Both the position numbers and the translations under genes were made by a program. Shown here piece by piece: positions 17,858 through 45,698 of a DNA stretch of 64,000 nucleotides. The stretch covers positions 1,798,001-1,862,000 of the forward strand of contig NZ_CP155619.1 in assembly GCF_039697315.1 (NCBI RefSeq). The letters run 5' to 3'. Numbering within the stretch: the stretch's first letter is position 1; every line of letters begins with the position of its first letter. The stretch is from Pseudomonas abietaniphila. GTDB taxonomy: Bacteria; Pseudomonadota; Gammaproteobacteria; Pseudomonadales; Pseudomonadaceae. Under the pieces are notes generated by a model. The model was given only the letters and a program-made list of their open reading frames with translations. It was not told the origin of the DNA and made no database searches.

Positions 17858-19615
17858 ATGCCCCGCGCCGCCCGCCTTCTTTTATATACCCTGCTCATCC
17901 TGGCGGGCGCCGTGATGGTCGCGACCCTGGCCATGCATCAGGCGCAGCGCCATTCGCTCGAAGACGAGGCGGCTCGCGCTCAAGACCAGCTTTCGCTGTA
18001 TGCCAACACTCTGCAAACCCTGATCGAGCGTTACCGTGCCCTCCCCGCCGTCCTGGCGCTGGACCCGGAACTGCGCGCCGCCCTGCGCGGACCGGTCAGC
18101 GCTGAAACCACGCAAGCCCTCAACCTCAAACTCGAGCAGATCAACGGCGCCGCGCAGTCATCGACGCTGGAATTGCTTGATCGTGACGGACTGGCCATCG
18201 GCGCCAGCAACTGGAAACTGCCCAGCAGCTACGTCGGCCACAACTACGGGTTTCGTCCTTATTTCACGCAGGCCAAAGCCACGGGCGTCGGGCGCTTTTA
18301 CGCGGTCGGCGTCACCAGCGGCATCCCCGGCTACTTCCTGGCCAATGCGGTCCGTGACGACGCCGGCCATTTCATCGGTGCCATGGTCGTGAAGCTTGAG
18401 TTCCCTGACCTTGAACACACCTGGGCGCAGGGCGACGACCTGTTGCTGGTCAGCGATGCAAAAGGCGTGGTGTTCATCGCCAATCAGCCCGGCTGGCGCT
18501 ATCGCTCGTTGCGGCCGCTGTCGGACCAGGACCGCAGTGAACTGGGCAGCACCCGCCAGTACGATAAACAGCCGCTGGCGCCACTGATTCAGGAACCGCT
18601 GCGCACCTTCAACGACAACAGCCTCCTGAGCCGGGTCGTCGCACCCGATGGCACCGACGATTACCTCTGGCAGTCGCTACCCTTGCAAGCAGAAGGCTGG
18701 ACGCTGCACCTGTTGCGCAAACCTCAGGCTGCCACTGAAGACATTCGCAATGCCGCGTTAGCCGCGGCCGGCATCTGGCTGACACTGGTGTTTCTCGGGT
18801 TGTTTCTGTATCAGCGCTGGCGACTGGCGCGCATGCGTCAACGCAGCCGTGAGGAACTGGAACAACTGGTCGAAGCGCGCACACGGGATTTACGCACGGC
18901 TCAGGACGGTCTGGTGCAATCGACCAAGCTCGCCGCGCTGGGACAGATGTCCGCCGCCCTCGCCCACGAAATCAACCAGCCGCTGACCGCGCAACGCATG
19001 CAACTGGCATCCCTGCAGTTATTGCTCGACCATGGCCGGGTCGATGACGCTTATAAGGCGCTGGCCCTGCTCGATCAGCAATTGACCCGCATGGCGGCGC
19101 TTACCGGGCATCTCAAGACCTTCGCCCGCAAAAGCCCCAGCGGCCTGCGCGAGCGCGTGGACCTTGCCTGTGTGGTCGATCAGGCGATGTTGCTGCTCGA
19201 CGCCCGGATTCGCGAGGAGCGTGTGAGCTGTGTCCTGGACCTGACGCGTCCGGCCTGGGTGCGCGGCGATGCGATTCGCCTGGAGCAGGTGCTCATCAAC
19301 CTGCTGCGCAATGCCCTGGACGCCATGCGCGAACAACCACTCAAGCGGCTGGAGATCCGTATCGATGCCGAGGGCCAGCACTGGCGCCTGAGCGTGGTTG
19401 ACAGCGGCAGCGGAATTGCCCAGGAGCACCTGGCGAATATCTTCGATCCATTCTTCACCACCAAACCCGTCGGCGACGGACTCGGTCTCGGATTGGCAGT
19501 TTCCTACGCTATCGTCCATGAGCTGGGGGGACGTCTGAGCGCCGAAAACCTCGACAACGGCGCGCGGTTTTCCTTCTGTTTGACCCAGGCCCCGGAGGCT
19601 GAACCCGTATGCTGA
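17858..19615 (+). CDS. mifS: Sensor histidine kinase, MifS/DctB type
   Basis: This 585-residue inner-membrane kinase is predicted to sense C4/C5-dicarboxylates. A first helix (about 7-29) and a second (about 300-322) enclose a Cache-like periplasmic domain; [13 protein letters not shown] and [11 protein letters not shown] are DctB-type signatures. The H-box [10 protein letters not shown] has the phospho-acceptor near His370. The ATPase region shows the [14 protein letters not shown] and GLGLGLAVS boxes. Its stop overlaps the start of the response-regulator gene by seven bases. The adjacent KgtP-type transporter and sigma-54 promoter suggest the P. aeruginosa MifSR arrangement for alpha-ketoglutarate use. 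A plain DctB is the alternative. Confidence 0.85.
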
Positions 19616-20955
19616 ACTCGGTGATCGTGGTCGATGACGAGGCCCCCATTCGTGAGGCGGTGGAGCAATGGCTGTCGCTGTCTGGCTTCGCGGTGCAAGT
19701 GTTCAGCCGTGCCGAAGATTGTCTGGCGCAGCTGCCCGAACACTTTCCCGGCGTGATCCTCAGTGACGTGCGCATGCCGGGTATGGGCGGGCTGGAGCTA
19801 CTGGCTCAGCTACAGGCACGCGATCCCGACTTGCCAGTGATTCTCCTGACAGGGCACGGCGATGTGCCGATGGCGGTGGACGCCATGCGCGACGGCGCCT
19901 ATGACTTTCTGGAAAAACCGTTCACCCCGCAAACCTTGCTCGGCAGCCTGCGCCGTGGGCTGGAAAAACGGCGACTGGTGCTGGAGAACCGTCGCTTGCA
20001 TGAACAGGCGGACAATCGCAGCCGCCTCGAAGCCACCTTGCTGGGCCTCTCGCCGAGCATTCAGACCTTACGCAGTCAGGTTCAGGACCTCGCCCAGCTG
20101 CCGGTCAACGTGTTGATTCGGGGCGAAACCGGCAGCGGCAAGGAAATGGTCGCGCGCTGCCTGCACGACTTCGGCCCTCGGGCCAGCAAACCGTTCGTGG
20201 CCGTCAACTGCGCCGCCATTCCCGAGCAACTGTTCGAAGCCGAACTGTTCGGCCATGAAAGCGGCGCGTTCACTGGTGCCCAGGGCAAGCGCATCGGCAA
20301 ACTGGAGTTCGCCCACGGCGGTACGCTGTTCCTCGACGAAATCGAAAGCATGCCGCTCGCGCAACAGGTGAAGTTGCTGCGGGTGATCCAGGACCGGCGC
20401 CTTGAGCGGTTGGGTTCCAACCAGAGTATCGAGGTTGACCTGCGCATCGTTGCCGCAACCAAGCCGGATCTGCTGGAAGAAGCCAGGTCCGGGCGTTTCC
20501 GTGAAGACTTGGCGTACCGCCTGAACATCGCCGAGCTGCGCCTGCCGCCATTGCGCGAAAGACGCGAAGACATTCCGCTGCTGTTCAGTCATTTCTCACG
20601 ACAGGCGGCGGAACGTCTGGGCCGCAGCGCTCCGGTGCTCAACGGCGGACAACTGAGTCATCTGCTCAGCCACGACTGGCCGGGCAATGTACGGGAGCTG
20701 GCCAACGCCGCGGAACGTCAGGTGCTCGGGCTGGAAAACCCGGCCTCGGTGGACATGCCGGCCGGACAGTCGCTGGCGGCGCAGCAGGAAGCGTTCGAGG
20801 CCCATTGCCTGCGCTCGGCGCTGAGCCGGCATAAAGGCGACATCAAGGCGGTGCTGAACGAGCTGCAACTGCCGCGGCGAACGTTGAATGAAAAGATGCA
20901 GCGTCACGGGTTGATCCGGGAAGTGTTTCTCCCTGACAACGGCGACCCCTTGTAG
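19609..20955 (+). CDS. mifR: Sigma-54-dependent response regulator, MifR/DctD type
   Basis: This 448-residue activator has three domains. The receiver domain has phospho-acceptor Asp53 in ILSDVRMPG. The AAA+ domain has Walker A GETGSGKE near residue 173, the GAFTGA sigma-54-contact motif near 219 and Walker B GGTLFLDEI. The C-terminal Fis-type helix-turn-helix includes KGDIKAVLNELQLPRRTL. It is coupled to the kinase gene by a seven-base overlap. The intact GAFTGA loop means it should activate a sigma-54 promoter, and one lies 230 bases downstream, before the transporter gene. It is named by analogy with MifR because the transporter is KgtP-like. Confidence 0.87.
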   Translation: MLNSVIVVDDEAPIREAVEQWLSLSGFAVQVFSRAEDCLAQLPEHFPGVILSDVRMPGMGGLELLAQLQARDPDLPVILLTGHGDVPMAVDAMRDGAYDFLEKPFTPQTLLGSLRRGLEKRRLVLENRRLHEQADNRSRLEATLLGLSPSIQTLRSQVQDLAQLPVNVLIRGETGSGKEMVARCLHDFGPRASKPFVAVNCAAIPEQLFEAELFGHESGAFTGAQGKRIGKLEFAHGGTLFLDEIESMPLAQQVKLLRVIQDRRLERLGSNQSIEVDLRIVAATKPDLLEEARSGRFREDLAYRLNIAELRLPPLRERREDIPLLFSHFSRQAAERLGRSAPVLNGGQLSHLLSHDWPGNVRELANAAERQVLGLENPASVDMPAGQSLAAQQEAFEAHCLRSALSRHKGDIKAVLNELQLPRRTLNEKMQRHGLIREVFLPDNGDPL

Positions 20956-21022
20956 AACCCCGTCCACTGTAGGAGCTGCCGGAGGTTACAACGGTGGCGA
21001 ACGCGGTATACCTGATTCCCAT

Positions 21023-21063
21023 CGTTTGCCTGACGCAACGTCATTGTCCGGATGCTGCCCGGA
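21023..21063. promoter_or_regulatory. Candidate upstream activator sites for MifR
   Basis: Two short inverted repeats lie 120-165 bases before the -24/-12 promoter: CGTTTGC/GCAACG at 21023-21040 and TCCGG/CCGGA at 21047-21063. Their distance is right for enhancer sites of a sigma-54 activator. Their identity as MifR sites is an inference. Confidence 0.4.
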
Positions 21064-21185
21064 CCCGGCGCGCACCTGCAATCATGCCGACATGAGCAAA
21101 ATTTCGCTTACCCAACCGCCCTGCATCGGCGGATTTCCGCTCACCCACTTCAAGCAAACCCTTCTAGACCGGGACTTTCCGGGCT

Positions 21186-21201
21186 TGGCACGTCTCCTGC
21201 T
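21186..21201 (+). promoter_or_regulatory. Sigma-54 (-24/-12) promoter of the KgtP-type gene
   Basis: TGGCACG at 21186-21192 and CTGCT at 21197-21201 put the invariant GG and GC exactly ten bases apart. They match the TGGCACG-N4-TTGCT consensus with one difference. The start codon of the transporter lies 62 bases downstream. The promoter fits control by the adjacent sigma-54 activator. Confidence 0.85.
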
Positions 21202-21263
21202 ATCACCCTTGCAAGACCGCATCGCTGCGATCCTTCTAAAAACAATGACTTGCAGGAAATCCA

Positions 21264-22586
21264 ATGGCTATTCCCAACTCTGTTTCCAACGGATCGGCTG
21301 CCGCACCCGTCGCCGACAAGACCACCAGAAGTCGCCTGAAATCCATTTTCAGTGGTTCGGTCGGCAACATGGTCGAGTGGTACGACTGGTACGTCTACGC
21401 TGCCTTCTCCCTCTACTTCGCCAAAGTCTTCTTCCCCAAAGGCGACACCACCGCACAACTGCTCAACACCGCGGCGATCTTCGCAGTCGGCTTTTTGATG
21501 CGCCCGATCGGCGGCTGGCTGATGGGCCTTTACGCTGACCGCAAAGGCCGCAAAGCGGCTTTGATGGCCTCGGTCCTGCTGATGTGTTTCGGCTCGCTGA
21601 TCATCGCGCTCACCCCCGGTTATGAAACCATCGGCGTCGGCGCCCCCATCCTTCTGGTGTTTGCTCGCCTGCTGCAGGGCTTGTCGGTCGGTGGCGAATA
21701 TGGCACCTCGGCGACCTATCTCAGCGAAATGGCGACCAAGGAGCGCCGTGGCTTCTTCTCCAGCTTCCAGTACGTGACGCTGATCTCCGGCCAGCTCATC
21801 GCGCTGGGCGTGTTGATCGTGCTGCAACAAACGCTCACCACCGAGCAACTGAACACCTGGGGCTGGCGCATCCCGTTCGCCATCGGCGCGCTGTGTGCCG
21901 TCGTTGCGCTGTTCCTGCGTCGCGGCATGGAAGAAACCGAGTCGTTCACCAAAAAGAAGGAAAAGCCAAAAGAGAGCCTGATGCGCACCCTGATGCGTCA
22001 TCCAAAAGAGCTCATGACCGTGGTCGGCCTGACCATGGGCGGCACGCTGGCGTTCTATACCTACACCACCTACATGCAGAAATACCTGGTGAACACTGTC
22101 GGCATGAGCATCACCGACTCGACCACGATTTCCGCTGCCACGCTGTTTCTGTTCATGGTGCTGCAACCGGTCATTGGCGCGCTGTCTGACAAGATCGGTC
22201 GTCGCCCGATCCTGATCGCCTTCGGTGTGCTCGGCACGCTGTGCACTGTCCCGATTCTCACGACGCTGCACACGATTCAAACCTGGTGGGGGGCGTTCTT
22301 CCTGATCATGGCGGCGCTGATCATTGTCAGCGGCTACACCTCGATCAACGCCGTGGTGAAGGCCGAGCTGTTCCCGACTGAAATTCGCGCACTGGGCGTC
22401 GGCCTGCCGTATGCACTGACCGTCTCAATCTTCGGTGGCACCGCCGAGTACATCGCGTTGTGGTTCAAGAGCATCGGCATGGAAACCGGCTACTACTGGT
22501 ACGTCACCGCCTGTATCGCATGCTCATTGCTGGTCTACGTCTTCATGAAAGACACCCGCCAGCATTCGCGAATCGACACCGACTGA
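21264..22586 (+). CDS. kgtP: MFS dicarboxylate / alpha-ketoglutarate permease, KgtP type
   Basis: The product is a 440-residue inner-membrane proton symporter of the metabolite:H+ family with about 12 helices. Signatures include GNMVEWYDWYVYAAFSLYFA at the first helix, the ADRKGRKAALM loop between helices 2 and 3, and [18 protein letters not shown]. It probably imports alpha-ketoglutarate or a related dicarboxylate. It is preceded by a sigma-54 promoter and the mifSR genes, and is followed by a strong terminator, so it is a single-gene unit. PcaT at 48757-50046 is a clear paralogue. The exact substrate is inferred from family and context. Confidence 0.88.
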   Translation: MAIPNSVSNGSAAAPVADKTTRSRLKSIFSGSVGNMVEWYDWYVYAAFSLYFAKVFFPKGDTTAQLLNTAAIFAVGFLMRPIGGWLMGLYADRKGRKAALMASVLLMCFGSLIIALTPGYETIGVGAPILLVFARLLQGLSVGGEYGTSATYLSEMATKERRGFFSSFQYVTLISGQLIALGVLIVLQQTLTTEQLNTWGWRIPFAIGALCAVVALFLRRGMEETESFTKKKEKPKESLMRTLMRHPKELMTVVGLTMGGTLAFYTYTTYMQKYLVNTVGMSITDSTTISAATLFLFMVLQPVIGALSDKIGRRPILIAFGVLGTLCTVPILTTLHTIQTWWGAFFLIMAALIIVSGYTSINAVVKAELFPTEIRALGVGLPYALTVSIFGGTAEYIALWFKSIGMETGYYWYVTACIACSLLVYVFMKDTRQHSRIDTD

Positions 22587-22710: not shown

Positions 22711-22827
22711 TATCAATTTCAACGATGATCGCTACCAATGCGATTGACTTCTTAATAATCCAGAGCCGAGTAAAGTTAACTCCATACCGAGTTACCCACT
22801 TATTCGAATCGATCTGGAGCAACTATC
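22711..22827 (+). promoter_or_regulatory. Upstream region of first repeat-protein gene, duplicated at 23597-23714
   Basis: The 117 bases before the ATG at 22828 align along their whole length with the 118 bases before the ATG at 23715. The best block is TATCAATTTCAACGATGATCG here and TATCATTTTCAGCGATGATCG there. Shared later blocks include ACTCCATACC and TGGAGCAA just before the start. No clear sigma-70 boxes with standard spacing are visible. Confidence 0.7.
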
Positions 22828-23292
22828 ATGAAAACTAACAAACTGATCTTCGGCCTCGCTTTCTCTATTCTGGCAACGAGCGCTTTTGCACTTCCTGCTG
22901 TAGATGCGAGCAAACATATCAACGCACCGGTAGTTGCTGAAAACGGTTCTTCCCATACCAACGTCGGTCGTGTTGCCGCTGATGGTGCTGACCGCGTAGG
23001 TGCCAACCGTGTTGCCGCTGACGGTGCAGACCGTGTAGGCAACAACCGTGTTGCCGCCGACGGTGCTGACCGTGTAGGCAACAACCGTGTTGCCGCTGAC
23101 GGCGCTGACCGCGTAGGCAACAACCGTGTTGCCGCTGACGGCGCTGACCGTGTAGGCAATAACCGTGTTGCCGCTGACGGTGCTGACCGTGTAGGTAACA
23201 ACCGTGTTGCCACTGACGGCGCTGACCATGTTGGTGCAAATCGTGTCGCTGCCGATGGCGCTGATCGTGTAGGCGCAAATCGCCTGAGCTGA
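22828..23292 (+). CDS. Secreted protein made of eight 13-residue tandem repeats (paralogue 1)
   Basis: The 154-residue product has a signal peptide (about 1-21, cleaved after SAFA). A 26-residue linker follows with an SSHTN motif, then eight perfect-length 13-residue repeats (residues 48-151) and a three-residue end. The repeat consensus is R-V-A-A-D-G-A-D-R-V-G-N-N, alternating Asp, Arg and Asn around small residues. This suggests a repetitive beta structure or a regularly charged fibre. I recall similar Pseudomonas proteins carrying the label phage infection protein, but I know no evidence for that function. A paralogue with its own copy of the promoter region follows at 23715. A terminator closes the gene. 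Function unknown. Confidence 0.8.
   Translation: MKTNKLIFGLAFSILATSAFALPAVDASKHINAPVVAENGSSHTNVGRVAADGADRVGANRVAADGADRVGNNRVAADGADRVGNNRVAADGADRVGNNRVAADGADRVGNNRVAADGADRVGNNRVATDGADHVGANRVAADGADRVGANRLS
22969..23280 (+). repeat. Eight in-frame 39-base tandem repeats
   Basis: Eight contiguous 39-base units encode the 13-residue repeats. Units 2 to 6 encode identical peptides and differ only at synonymous positions. Units 7 and 8 are more divergent (T and H substitutions). The array has no spacers, so it is not a CRISPR. Confidence 0.92.
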
Positions 23293-23313
23293 TCGCCAAG
23301 CGGTTCCCTCTCC

Positions 23314-23342
23314 AGCCCGGCTTCCGCCGGGCTTAGTTTTTT
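23314..23342 (+). terminator. Intrinsic terminator after repeat-protein gene 1
   Basis: AGCCCGGC and GCCGGGCT pair around a TTCC loop and are followed by TAGTTTTTT. The 250 bases from here to 23596 contain no recognisable gene. Confidence 0.85.
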
Positions 23343-23596
23343 CTGCCACCGCAAAACGATCCAGCCCTCGTAATTGCTGGCTTCTTCCCCCTTCGCTGGC
23401 GGTTTCCTCTCCCTTTAGGGCGATTAGCGCTATCAGCCTGATGAATCCCATCTCATCACGCAAACCATACCAACAAAAGAAGACATTCACGCAATAATTA
23501 ATTTGTCAACCAGCAAAACTGTCAAACCTGACAGAAATTGCCCCATTTCGGATCAAGATCCGCTGGAACGCTTTAAAACCGGGCGCTGCAGCCAAC

Positions 23597-23714
23597 TATC
23601 ATTTTCAGCGATGATCGTTAGCAAGCTTGTTAACTTCTACTTAATGCGTACGCGCGTAAAATTCACTCCATACCCAAGTTAAAGAAATTATTGAACTTTG
23701 ATGGAGCAAACATC
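23597..23714 (+). promoter_or_regulatory. Duplicated upstream region of second repeat-protein gene
   Basis: This is the homologue of 22711-22827. It starts with the same TATCA-TTTCA-CGATGATCG block and has nearly the same distance (118 bases) to the start codon. The promoter was therefore duplicated together with the gene. Confidence 0.7.
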
Positions 23715-24194
23715 ATGAAAACTTCAAACATTCTGTTCGGCCTTAGTCTCTCTATTCTGGCGTCGAGTGCATTCGCTCTGCCGGTTTCTGATCACCACGC
23801 TGTATTGAACGGTACTGTTGTCGCTGAAGGTGGTTCTTCCCACACCAACGCTTCGCACACCGGTTCTTATCGTCAGGCTTCTGATGGTGCTGACCGCGTC
23901 GGGGCAAATCGCCTGGCCGCTGACGGCGCTGACCGCGTAGGTAACAACCGTCAGGCCGCCGATGGCGCCGACCACGTGGGTGCCAACCGTCTGGCCGCTG
24001 ACGGCGCTGACCGTGTAGGCAACAACCGTCAGGCCGCCGATGGCGCTGACCACGTCGGTGCCAACCGTTTGGCCGCTGACGGCGCTGACCGCGTAGGCAA
24101 CAACCGTCAAGCCGCCGATGGCGCTGACCACGTCGGTGCCAACCGTCTGGCCGCCGACGGTGCCGACCATGTCGGCGCCAACCGCGTCAGCTAA
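23715..24194 (+). CDS. Secreted protein made of eight 13-residue tandem repeats (paralogue 2)
   Basis: The 159-residue product has a signal peptide similar to that of paralogue 1 (MKTSNILFGL start, SAFA cleavage). A longer linker follows (SSHTNASHTGSY), then eight 13-residue repeats (residues 53-156). Here the units alternate: RLAADGADRVGNN is followed by RQAADGADHVGAN, giving a 26-residue higher-order period repeated three times. The ATG at 23715 is preceded by TGGAGCAA, as in paralogue 1; an upstream in-frame start would break the signal peptide. It probably arose by duplication and then evolved its own array pattern. Function unknown. Confidence 0.8.
   Translation: MKTSNILFGLSLSILASSAFALPVSDHHAVLNGTVVAEGGSSHTNASHTGSYRQASDGADRVGANRLAADGADRVGNNRQAADGADHVGANRLAADGADRVGNNRQAADGADHVGANRLAADGADRVGNNRQAADGADHVGANRLAADGADHVGANRVS
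23871..24182 (+). repeat. Eight in-frame 39-base repeats with a 78-base higher-order period
   Basis: Eight units of 39 bases are present. Odd and even units fall into two classes (RV/DH and NN/AN differences), so the array looks like a dimer repeated three times and flanked by one variant unit at each end. Confidence 0.92.
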
Positions 24195-24247
24195 TACGGC
24201 CCTACAGCTTTACCGCTTCAGACGTTCCACCTCCTGAACTCCCTTTG

Positions 24248-24275
24248 TAGCCCGGCTGATGCCGGGCTTTTTTTT
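24248..24275 (+). terminator. Intrinsic terminator after repeat-protein gene 2
   Basis: AGCCCGGC and GCCGGGCT pair around TGAT and are followed by nine T residues. The stem is the same as in the terminator after paralogue 1, extending the duplication. Confidence 0.88.
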
Positions 24276-24396
24276 GCCTGAATAACGGCAAAGTCTGGAA
24301 TCCGCAGGAAATGCCTTGCACTATGACGGCCTTCATTCTGTGCGGACAGCCGATGCTCAACCCGGCTCCCCGTCTCTCTTATCCAGGAAATGCGCT

Positions 24397-42563: not shown

Positions 42564-45500
42564 ATGTCGAAATTTTTTATCGACCGGCCCATTTTCGCGT
42601 GGGTAATCGCCCTCGTGATCATGCTGGTGGGGACGCTCTCGATCCTCAAGCTGCCGATCAACCAATACCCCGCCATCGCTCCGCCGGCCATCGCGATTCA
42701 GGTCACCTACCCGGGTGCGAACGCGCAAACCGTGCAGGACACCGTGGTTCAGGTGATCGAGCAACAGCTCAATGGTATCGACAACCTGCGATATGTCGCC
42801 TCGGAAAGTAACTCCGACGGCAGCATGACCATCACCGCGACGTTCAACCAGGGCACCAACCCGGACATCGCGCAGGTTCAGGTCCAGAACAAGCTCAACC
42901 TGGCGACCCCACTGCTGCCCCAAGAAGTGCAGCAGCAAGGTATCCGTGTCACCAAGGCGGTTAAAAACTTCCTGATGGTTGTGGGTCTGGTGTCGGAAGA
43001 CGGCAGCATGGCCAAGGAAGACTTGTCCAACTACATCGTATCGAACATGCAGGACCCGATCTCCCGTACCTCCGGTGTGGGCGACTTCCAGGTGTTCGGT
43101 GCGCAGTATGCGATGCGTATCTGGCTCGATCCGGCCAAGCTGAATAACTTTCAGCTGACGCCCGTCGATGTGAAAACCGCAATCAGTGCCCAGAACGTAC
43201 AGGTTTCCTCCGGCCAACTCGGTGGCCTGCCTGCGCTCAAGGGTCAGCAACTGAACGCGACCATCATCGGCAAGACCCGTCTGCAAACTGCCGAGCAGTT
43301 CGGCAATATCCTGCTCAAGGTCAATCAGGACGGTTCGCAAGTTCGTGTGAAGGACGTTGGTACAGTCGGTCTGGGCGGCGAGAACTACAGCATCGACGCG
43401 CAGTTCAACGGCAAACCGGCTTCCGGTCTTGCGATCAAGCTGGCAACCGGTGCGAACGCACTGGACACCGCCAAGGCGATCCGCGCGACCATTTCGCAAC
43501 TGGAACCCTTCTTCCCGCCAGGCATGAAAGTCGTCTACCCGTACGACACCACGCCGGTGGTGACCGAGTCGATCTCCGGGGTTGTTCACACCCTCGGTGA
43601 AGCAATCGTGCTGGTCTTCCTGGTGATGTACCTGTTCCTGCAGAACTTCCGCGCAACTGTCATCACGACACTGACGGTTCCGGTGGTATTGCTGGGTACC
43701 TTCGGCATCCTCGCCGCAGCGGGTTTCACCATCAACACCCTGACCATGTTCGGCATGATTCTGGCCATCGGCTTGCTGGTGGACGATGCCATCGTGGTGG
43801 TGGAAAACGTCGAACGGGTGATGGCGGAAGACAAGCTGTCCCCGCGTGAGGCCACCATCAAGTCCATGGAGCAGATCCAGGGTGCACTGGTCGGTATTGC
43901 ACTCGTTCTCTCGGCGGTACTGCTGCCGATGGCTTTCTTCGGCGGCTCCACCGGTGTGATTTACCGGCAGTTCTCGATCACCATTGTCTCGGCCATGGCC
44001 CTGTCGGTGCTGGTTGCGCTGATCTTCACCCCTGCCTTGTGCTCGACCATGCTCAAGCCCATTGACCATGAAAAACACGGGCAACCGAAACGTGGATTCT
44101 TTGGCTGGTTCAACCGCACGTTCGACCGCAGCGTACTGAGCTACGAGCGCGGCGTCGGGAACATGATCAAGCACAAGATCCCGGCTTATCTGGTTTACCT
44201 GCTGATCATCTGCGGCACCGTCTGGATGTTCACACGCATCCCGAGCGCGTTCCTGCCGGAAGAAGACCAGGGCGTTATCTTTGCCCAGGTTCAGACGCCG
44301 CCCGGCTCCACAGCCGAACGCACCCAAGTGGTGATCGACAACATGCGCAAATACCTGCTGGAGCAAGAGTCCAGTGCGGTTAACTCGGTGTTCACGGTCA
44401 ACGGGTTCAACTTCGCGGGTCGCGGCCAGAGCTCGGGTCTTGCGTTCATCATGCTCAAACCGTGGGAAGACCGTGACGCGTCCAACAGCGTGTTCGAGCT
44501 TGCCAAGCGTGCTCAGCAGCATTTCTTTGGATTCCGCGATGCGATGACATTCGCCGTCGTACCGCCTGCCGTACTGGAACTGGGTAACGCCACCGGTTTC
44601 GACGTGTACCTCCAGGATCAGGGCGGTGTGGGCCACGCCAAGCTGATGGAAGCGCGTAACCAACTGCTCGGCATGGCAGCACAAAGCAAGATACTGGCGG
44701 GCGTGCGGCCCAACGGTCTGAACGATGAGCCGCAGTATCAGTTGGTCATCGATGACGAGCGTGCCCAGGCACTGGGTGTCAGCCTCTCGGACATCAACAC
44801 CACACTCTCGGTGGCGTTCGGTGGTAACTACGTCAACGACTTCATCGACCGCGGCCGGGTTAAAAAGGTGTACGTGCAGGGTCAACCCAACGCGCGGATG
44901 AAGCCTGAAGACCTGAAGAAATGGTACGTGCGCAACACCGCAGGGGAGATGGTGCCGTTTGCCTCGTTCGCCACCGGCGAGTGGGTGTTCGGTTCGCCAA
45001 AACTGTCGCGCTATAACGGTGTTCCGGCCGAGGAAGTACTGGGTACTCCGGCGCCAGGCTACAGCACCGGTGAGGCGATGGCCGAGGTCGAGCAACTGGC
45101 CAAGAAACTGCCTGCAGGCATCGGCATCTCGTGGACAGGTCTGTCTTACGAGGAGCGTCTGTCCGGTTCTCAGGCCCCAGCGCTGTATGCGCTGTCGATT
45201 CTGGTGGTCTTCCTCTGCCTTGCGGCCCTGTATGAAAGCTGGTCGATTCCGATCGCGGTCATTCTGGTTATCCCGCTGGGCGTGATCGGTGCACTGATGG
45301 CAACCAGTCTGCGGGGCCTGTCCAACGACGTGTTCTTCCAGGTGGGCTTGCTGGTAACCGTGGGTCTGGCGGCGAAAAACGCCATTCTTATCGTCGAGTT
45401 CGCCAAGGAACTCCATGAGCAGGGCAAAGGTCTGGTTGAAGCGACCATCGAGGCATGCCGGATGCGTCTGCGGCCAATCGTCATGACGTCGATGGCGTTC

Positions 45501-45698
45501 ATCCTCGGCGTAGTGCCCCTGGCGATTTCCTCGGGTGCAGGTGCAGGCAGCCAACATTCGATCGGTACTGGCGTGATCGGCGGTATGATCACCGCCGTGA
45601 TCCTGGCGATCTTCTGGGTACCTCTGTTCTTCGTTTCGGTATCCTCGCTGTTCAAGAGCAAACAGAAACACACCCCACACGATGAGGCTGGCCAATGA
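42564..45698 (+). CDS. mexB: RND multidrug efflux pump, inner-membrane transporter
   Basis: The 1044-residue HAE1-family pump has 12 transmembrane helices and two large periplasmic loops. The proton-relay aspartates are in [16 protein letters not shown] (about residues 407-408), and the partner lysine is in [16 protein letters not shown] (about 940). It starts [14 protein letters not shown], the typical RND N-terminus. It exports beta-lactams, chloramphenicol, solvents and plant compounds in relatives. It begins three bases after mexA and overlaps oprM by four bases (ATGA). A long antisense open frame here is only a codon-bias shadow. Confidence 0.95.

Follow-up and report, generated by a model that had tools for sequence, protein, structure and literature searches.

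Paired tandem-repeat genes of Pseudomonas abietaniphila belong to a widespread family with a shared, putatively MexT-type promoter

Two of the closest described systems to the genes analysed here lie under the regulator MexT of Pseudomonas aeruginosa, whose nod box has been given as ATYA(N7)YGAT (PMC11432991) and which is reported to be activated by diamide (PMC12607905). Among the genes reported as most reduced in a mexT mutant are PA4881, PA3229, PA1942, PA4623, PA1744, PA2486 and PA1970, with PA4881 at −6.5 log2 and PA2813 likewise lower (PMC12607905); PA2813 is annotated as a probable glutathione S-transferase (PMC3848899). PA4881 is described as a tandem repeat protein under MexT, another LTTR, PA2206, is reported to bind its promoter, and the disk test described in that report gave no added H2O2 susceptibility (PMC3557286). 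An enynone compound is also reported to induce MexT-linked genes, PA4881 among them. PA2486 has been named ptrC (PMC9602442), and titles and tables in the literature indicate a proposed role in the T3SS. The two genes described below, P1 and P2, are like the MexT-regulated PA4881 type in that they encode tandem-repeat proteins and have ATYA-N7-YGAT upstream. PA4881 is comparable as an uncharacterised tandem repeat protein with a redox-responsive LysR regulator, and PtrC as the product of a MexT-regulated gene, both comparisons being drawn by description only.

P1 (22828..23292, plus strand; 154 amino acids) and P2 (23715..24194, plus strand; 159 amino acids) are adjacent in the window, by which we mean the whole 64,000-nucleotide stretch of P. 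abietaniphila DNA that was analysed. Open reading frames and repeats bear out the original prediction for each protein, namely eight 13-residue units preceded by a signal peptide and a linker. By inspection, the signal-peptide-like start is 21 residues long in both proteins (22828..22890 in P1, with an AFA end, and 23715..23777 in P2, both plus strand), and F20 and A21 are invariant across the 38 rows of alignment A1. The repeat arrays, both on the plus strand, are made of eight 39-bp units (22972..23283 in P1 and 23874..24185 in P2), those of P2 alternating as a 78-bp unit. Tandem Repeats Finder delimits 39-bp arrays at 22969-23274 in P1, with 87% matches, and at 23871-24184 in P2, with 76% matches, or 90% when P2 is read as a 78-bp unit (23871-24168). 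Each gene is followed on the plus strand by a terminator (stems at 23314..23333 and 24249..24268) with an eight-pair stem, identical in its letters between the two, and then a T run. Long opposite-strand reading frames at the arrays were set aside as what we read as by-products of stop-free 39-bp repeats.

The likeness of the two copies extends to their surroundings. Identity between the copies is 73% for the upstream blocks (22711-22788 and 23597-23674), 74% for the start regions (22815-22895 and 23702-23782) and 76% for the terminator blocks (23305-23345 and 24240-24280), which supports the earlier proposal that promoter, gene and terminator were copied together; the distances from block start to ATG are indeed 117 bases for P1 and 118 for P2. 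A midpoint-rooted tree of promoter and start regions, in which copy 2 of locus L067 is a clear outlier row, places the first copies of different species together and apart from the second copies, so the duplication is older than those species. Both flanks of the pair, a metabolite/H+ symporter gene and a gene read as flavin-reductase-like (no NCBIfam match), are present at 25 of 29 named loci; 13 of these loci have two family genes in between and 12 have one. This pair count runs low, as the promoter model introduced below shows two promoters in L053, scored as one gene, and in L043, scored as missing one flank. At locus L099 (genome G748), three short family genes stand in a row, with a promoter-like region upstream of each.

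The repeats are kept as protein, under selection at that level, since the differences between units are concentrated at third codon positions. Pairwise comparison of the eight units gives 22, 22 and 138 differences at codon positions 1, 2 and 3 in P1 and 29, 47 and 146 in P2, and comparison of P1 with P2 units gives 113, 98 and 391. Across 93 distinct family proteins, core-to-core spacing is 13 residues in 552 of 606 cases. The unit joins a conserved eight-residue core to a variable stretch of five residues that is not the same from one paralogue or clade to another. G occupies position 5 in all 552 units, R or H position 8 in 550 and R position 13 in 523, conservation of the first eight positions being partly built in because the core pattern demands the G and restricts positions 1-8. 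Positions 9-12 vary, with post-core parts such as VGANR, VGNNR, TPGFR, SQSLR, TKAFR and LIEGRD, among others.

These genes are real, conserved and genus-wide. Searches with P1 find matches in 283 of the 298 Pseudomonas genomes sampled, in 62 of 198 genomes of the Pseudomonadaceae sample (9 of 19 genera) and in 3 of 274 genomes of the class sample, the own genome being counted each time and two of the class-level matches having E about 1e-4. Among 72,556 plasmid records there are three matches, one of them in Pseudomonas; the other two (Lactiplantibacillus and Mesomycoplasma) and the two class-level ones are taken as compositional. All 29 named loci are from Pseudomonas, and the closest neighbourhood belongs to P. 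abietaniphila, with a symporter 99.1% identical and a flavin-reductase-like protein 100% identical. A histidine kinase, an NtrC-type regulator and the metabolite/H+ symporter form a cluster at 17858-22586 of the window; at most of the named loci, too, this cluster lies upstream of the repeat genes. Elsewhere, the own genome encodes a 102-residue paralogue with the promoter and a more distant 101-residue relative (L196) that was detected via its promoter. It also holds a 397-residue relative (L009:4758-5951, at 166.8-168.0 kb), in which over 20 near-identical units are followed by a C-terminal tail free of repeats and upstream of which the promoter model has no match; long proteins similar to it occur at L038 and L039.

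The new result is the promoter, which is common to members with repeats as unlike as VAADGADRVGNNR and VAEGGADRTPGFR. The 96 rows available were reduced to 92 promoters by leaving out the upstream regions of L009, L038, L039 and L079, the first three being those of the long paralogues, where the pattern is not seen by eye. Alignment of 42 of the 92, picked for diversity so as to include close and distant members, has few gaps and a fixed-spacing layout: ATC-N9-GAT, a −35 element, 17 bp and a −10 element. A TA element lies downstream of the box, the −35 is of the ACTTC type, a −10-like hexamer stands 59 bp past the box start, and CTCC(A/G)TA follows this hexamer in most aligned rows. ATC-N9-GAT is present in 80 of the 92 promoters, and 74 of 85 such boxes begin exactly 59 bp ahead of a TA-NN-[AG]T hexamer. 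If transcription starts about 7 bp past the −10, the box centre falls near −64, which we take to be the classic position for LysR recognition. The family box also agrees with the nod box published for MexT: ATYA-N7-YGAT occurs within 160 bp in 69 of the 92 family promoters (it is missing from the other 23), compared with 1.4% of shuffled regions.

Exact copies of ATYA-N7-YGAT stand upstream of P1 (22712..22726, plus strand), P2 (23598..23612, plus strand) and the 102-residue paralogue. In P1 the putative −35 CTTCTT and −10 TAAAGT, and in P2 CTTCTA and TAAAAT, are separated by 17-bp spacers (22748..22776 and 23634..23662, both plus strand); a sigma-70 scan did not report these promoters, so their assignment rests on family conservation. 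As both genes carry the same LysR box, −35, −10 and spacing, they are better explained by co-regulation and dosage than by differential regulation. The idea that the two copies kept private promoters therefore holds in that each gene has its own, and of the two roles that had been suggested for this arrangement, the like twin promoters favour dosage and disfavour differential regulation.

A promoter model, R1, was built from the 42 aligned promoters, with P1 (22703..22800, plus strand, 71.1 bits) and P2 (23589..23683, plus strand, 70.5 bits) matching it as training rows. Over 30 sources (400,946 bp), all chosen for holding family genes, R1 gives 47 matches, all at E ≤ 8e-14, with nothing weaker up to E 10, and a family reading frame lies downstream of every one; 34 of the 47 share no letters with a training row and 13 do. 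The own genome has five matches at E ≤ 2.4e-6, three of them the training rows of P1, P2 and the 102-residue paralogue, the fourth belonging to the L196 relative (E 2.9e-15) and the fifth to a short membrane-like reading frame of 45 amino acids, or 68 with an earlier start. Weak matches there (E 0.03-0.5), none significant alone, precede a DoxX-like gene, azoR (E 0.037 and 0.38) and a glutathione transferase-like gene. For azoR, at least four of ten other genomes give matches at E 1.4e-8 to 3.8e-5.

Eighteen R1 matches, 4 from the own genome and 14 from the ten others, were inspected closely, and behind them stand nine repeat genes, five azoR genes (the own copy included), one glutathione transferase-like gene, one DoxX-like gene and two short membrane-like reading frames. 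Of 30 matches taken from a longer list in another genus of the Pseudomonadaceae, 17 precede azoR, 4 repeat proteins and 6 a membrane-like protein of 80-88 amino acids, the other 3 having no clear assignment. FMN-azoreductase genes with the family's promoter architecture in many genomes suggest one quinone/electrophile regulon. The same architecture was seen at azoR in 17 loci among L215-L243 of the other genus, and at L199, L204, L207, L209 and L213. R1-type promoters precede genes for short membrane-like proteins at L218, L224, L228, L233, L234, L242, L202 and, in the own genome, L197, and a protein of another repeat design, NGSERTIDRLHxxM, lies behind a like promoter at L223, L231 and L238.

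RND pumps of the own genome were surveyed at 13 strong loci out of 15 places. The best R1 match among them lies upstream of a MexF/OqxB-like pump (above the NF000282 cut-off and below that of the OqxB model), at 9.0 bits and E 0.081 in 78.7 kb, and this promoter is missing from the genome-wide R1 list. ATYA-N7-YGAT occurs upstream of this pump and at 2 of the other 12 loci, where the position of one of the two boxes places it within a coding region; with about one chance box expected by our estimate, the box at the pump is support rather than proof. The window itself contains an AcrB/MexB-type RND pump gene (42564-45641), whose 1.5 kb upstream is without ATYA-N7-YGAT. We did not locate a mexT gene in the own genome.

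Taken with the published consensus, the promoter layout makes it probable that ATC-N9-GAT, at about −64, is the binding site of a MexT-type LysR activator, and that disulfide or electrophile stress would turn the family genes on along with others such as azoR and a MexEF-like pump. The regulator could instead be another quinone-sensing LysR protein, such as one encoded divergently from azoR, in which case the family would sit in a quinone-reductase regulon and not in that of MexT. By the counts above (5 of 18 and 17 of 30), no gene outside the family follows the R1 matches examined more often than azoR, glutathione transferase-like and DoxX-like genes also lie behind such matches, and at L160 in the own genome a LysR gene adjoins azoR, the space between the two genes containing the R1 match of E 0.037. 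We regard this alternative as rather unlikely, given that the family boxes fit the MexT consensus and that PA4881 is a reported MexT target; the consensus itself also fits azoR boxes such as that at L220, so it cannot separate MexT from an azoR-side LysR.

For the product, one lead is PtrA, which is reported to be periplasmic and induced by copper and zinc. The PtrA family (NF041599; PA2808) is similar in that an AEGGADR-like unit follows the signal peptide, and different in that the unit is single and the tail non-repeat; among 30 loci, 14 are shown in which PtrA-type members have this one unit right after the signal peptide. Five of ten tested relatives with VAEGGADR-type repeats score above the NCBIfam PtrA cut-off of 31 bits, and the units of PtrA and of the repeat family may possibly have a common origin. 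That P1 and P2 are periplasmic Cu/Zn-binding buffers, as proposed for PtrA, nevertheless seems unlikely to us. Neither matches NF041599 or any other family of the collection up to E 1, and the own genome has no match to it up to E 0.1. Moreover, the relatives reach their scores by adding up many short repeats, in most cases without a single significant stretch, and mature P1 has only three His and neither Cys nor Met, with eight His in mature P2. A Cu/Zn-induced operon beside CopRS is taken as a mark of the PtrA family; the neighbours of P1 and P2 are the symporter gene and the flavin-reductase-like gene. The copper lead was set aside for P1 and P2 because the direct test against the PtrA model failed.

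The mature parts of the family have an unusual composition. Cys and Trp are absent after residue 24 in all 90 distinct family proteins of up to 300 amino acids, and in the same proteins Lys amounts to 0.38% and Met to 0.07%; the L196 relative, which lies outside this count, carries one Cys. The family is similar in composition to hydrophilins and disordered desiccation protectants, being Gly-rich, hydrophilic and poor in aromatic residues and Cys; it differs in being exported, in its LysR-type promoter and in its exact 13-residue repeats, and the likeness is by composition alone. We tentatively suggest that the Sec-exported chains remain disordered in the periplasm, where polyampholytes of this kind, lacking Cys and Trp and containing hardly any Lys or Met, could act as inert, hydrophilin-like protectants of envelope proteins, with the dose set by gene number and repeat number.

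The same composition could also be read as that of a sacrificial nucleophile whose dense Arg and His side chains scavenge periplasmic dicarbonyls or unsaturated aldehydes. Of 552 units, 523 end in Arg and 550 have R or H at position 8, the proteins contain no Cys and little Lys, and the reported induction of MexT-linked genes, including PA4881, by an enynone would suit such a role; Cys would trap better, however, and we find this even less likely than the metal buffer.

AlphaFold2 gives a mean pLDDT of 38.6 and a pTM of 0.18 with 38 aligned sequences, scores that agree with disorder for the protectant reading and may also reflect an alignment that is unfit for repeats. Searches of P1, P2 or the region against Pfam, NCBIfam, PHROGs, PADLOC, PDB and Rfam returned nothing convincing, the best PHROG match having E 0.0025 over 15 residues and one PDB chain E 0.4; PADLOC assigned no family to either protein, and P1 has no match in 50,697 phage records. 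Pfam matches to PAAR, PilX_N and PadR in divergent relatives (above cut-off, one protein) were judged repeat artefacts. The even spacing of the cores, 13 residues in 552 of 606 cases, speaks for the earlier suggestion of a secreted fibre or β-solenoid that binds ligands or phage. The structure prediction lends this suggestion no support, and the PDB profile, PADLOC and phage-record searches were all without a match, results that leave room for a receptor role; we hold the suggestion highly improbable. A literature search found no match for the repeat letters and none for a 13-residue repeat. The earlier statement that the proteins have no characterised function still holds, and what can now be proposed is their regulatory setting.

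As a whole, the best explanation is that P1 and P2 are regulated together and belong to a family of exported tandem-repeat proteins that spans the Pseudomonadaceae, its members being induced by stress through a MexT-type activator and protective in the periplasm, an explanation to which we give a probability of about one half. The regulation of the family would have a name that can be put to the test, and its function is a matter of inference. PA4881 and PA3229 are reported to be among those P. aeruginosa genes that depend most strongly on MexT, with function unassigned, and if PA4881-type genes are relatives, a non-pathogenic pseudomonad with few copies would be a simple place to learn what they do. 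R1 also offers a sequence handle for tracing the stress regulon through the genus. It is conceivable, although we hold it more doubtful than the protectant role itself, that a multi-copy family of exported, Cys-free, disordered repeat proteins is a main output of a conserved MexT-type promoter for disulfide/electrophile stress in pseudomonads, forming a protectant layer in the periplasm whose amount would be tuned by duplication of repeats and genes.
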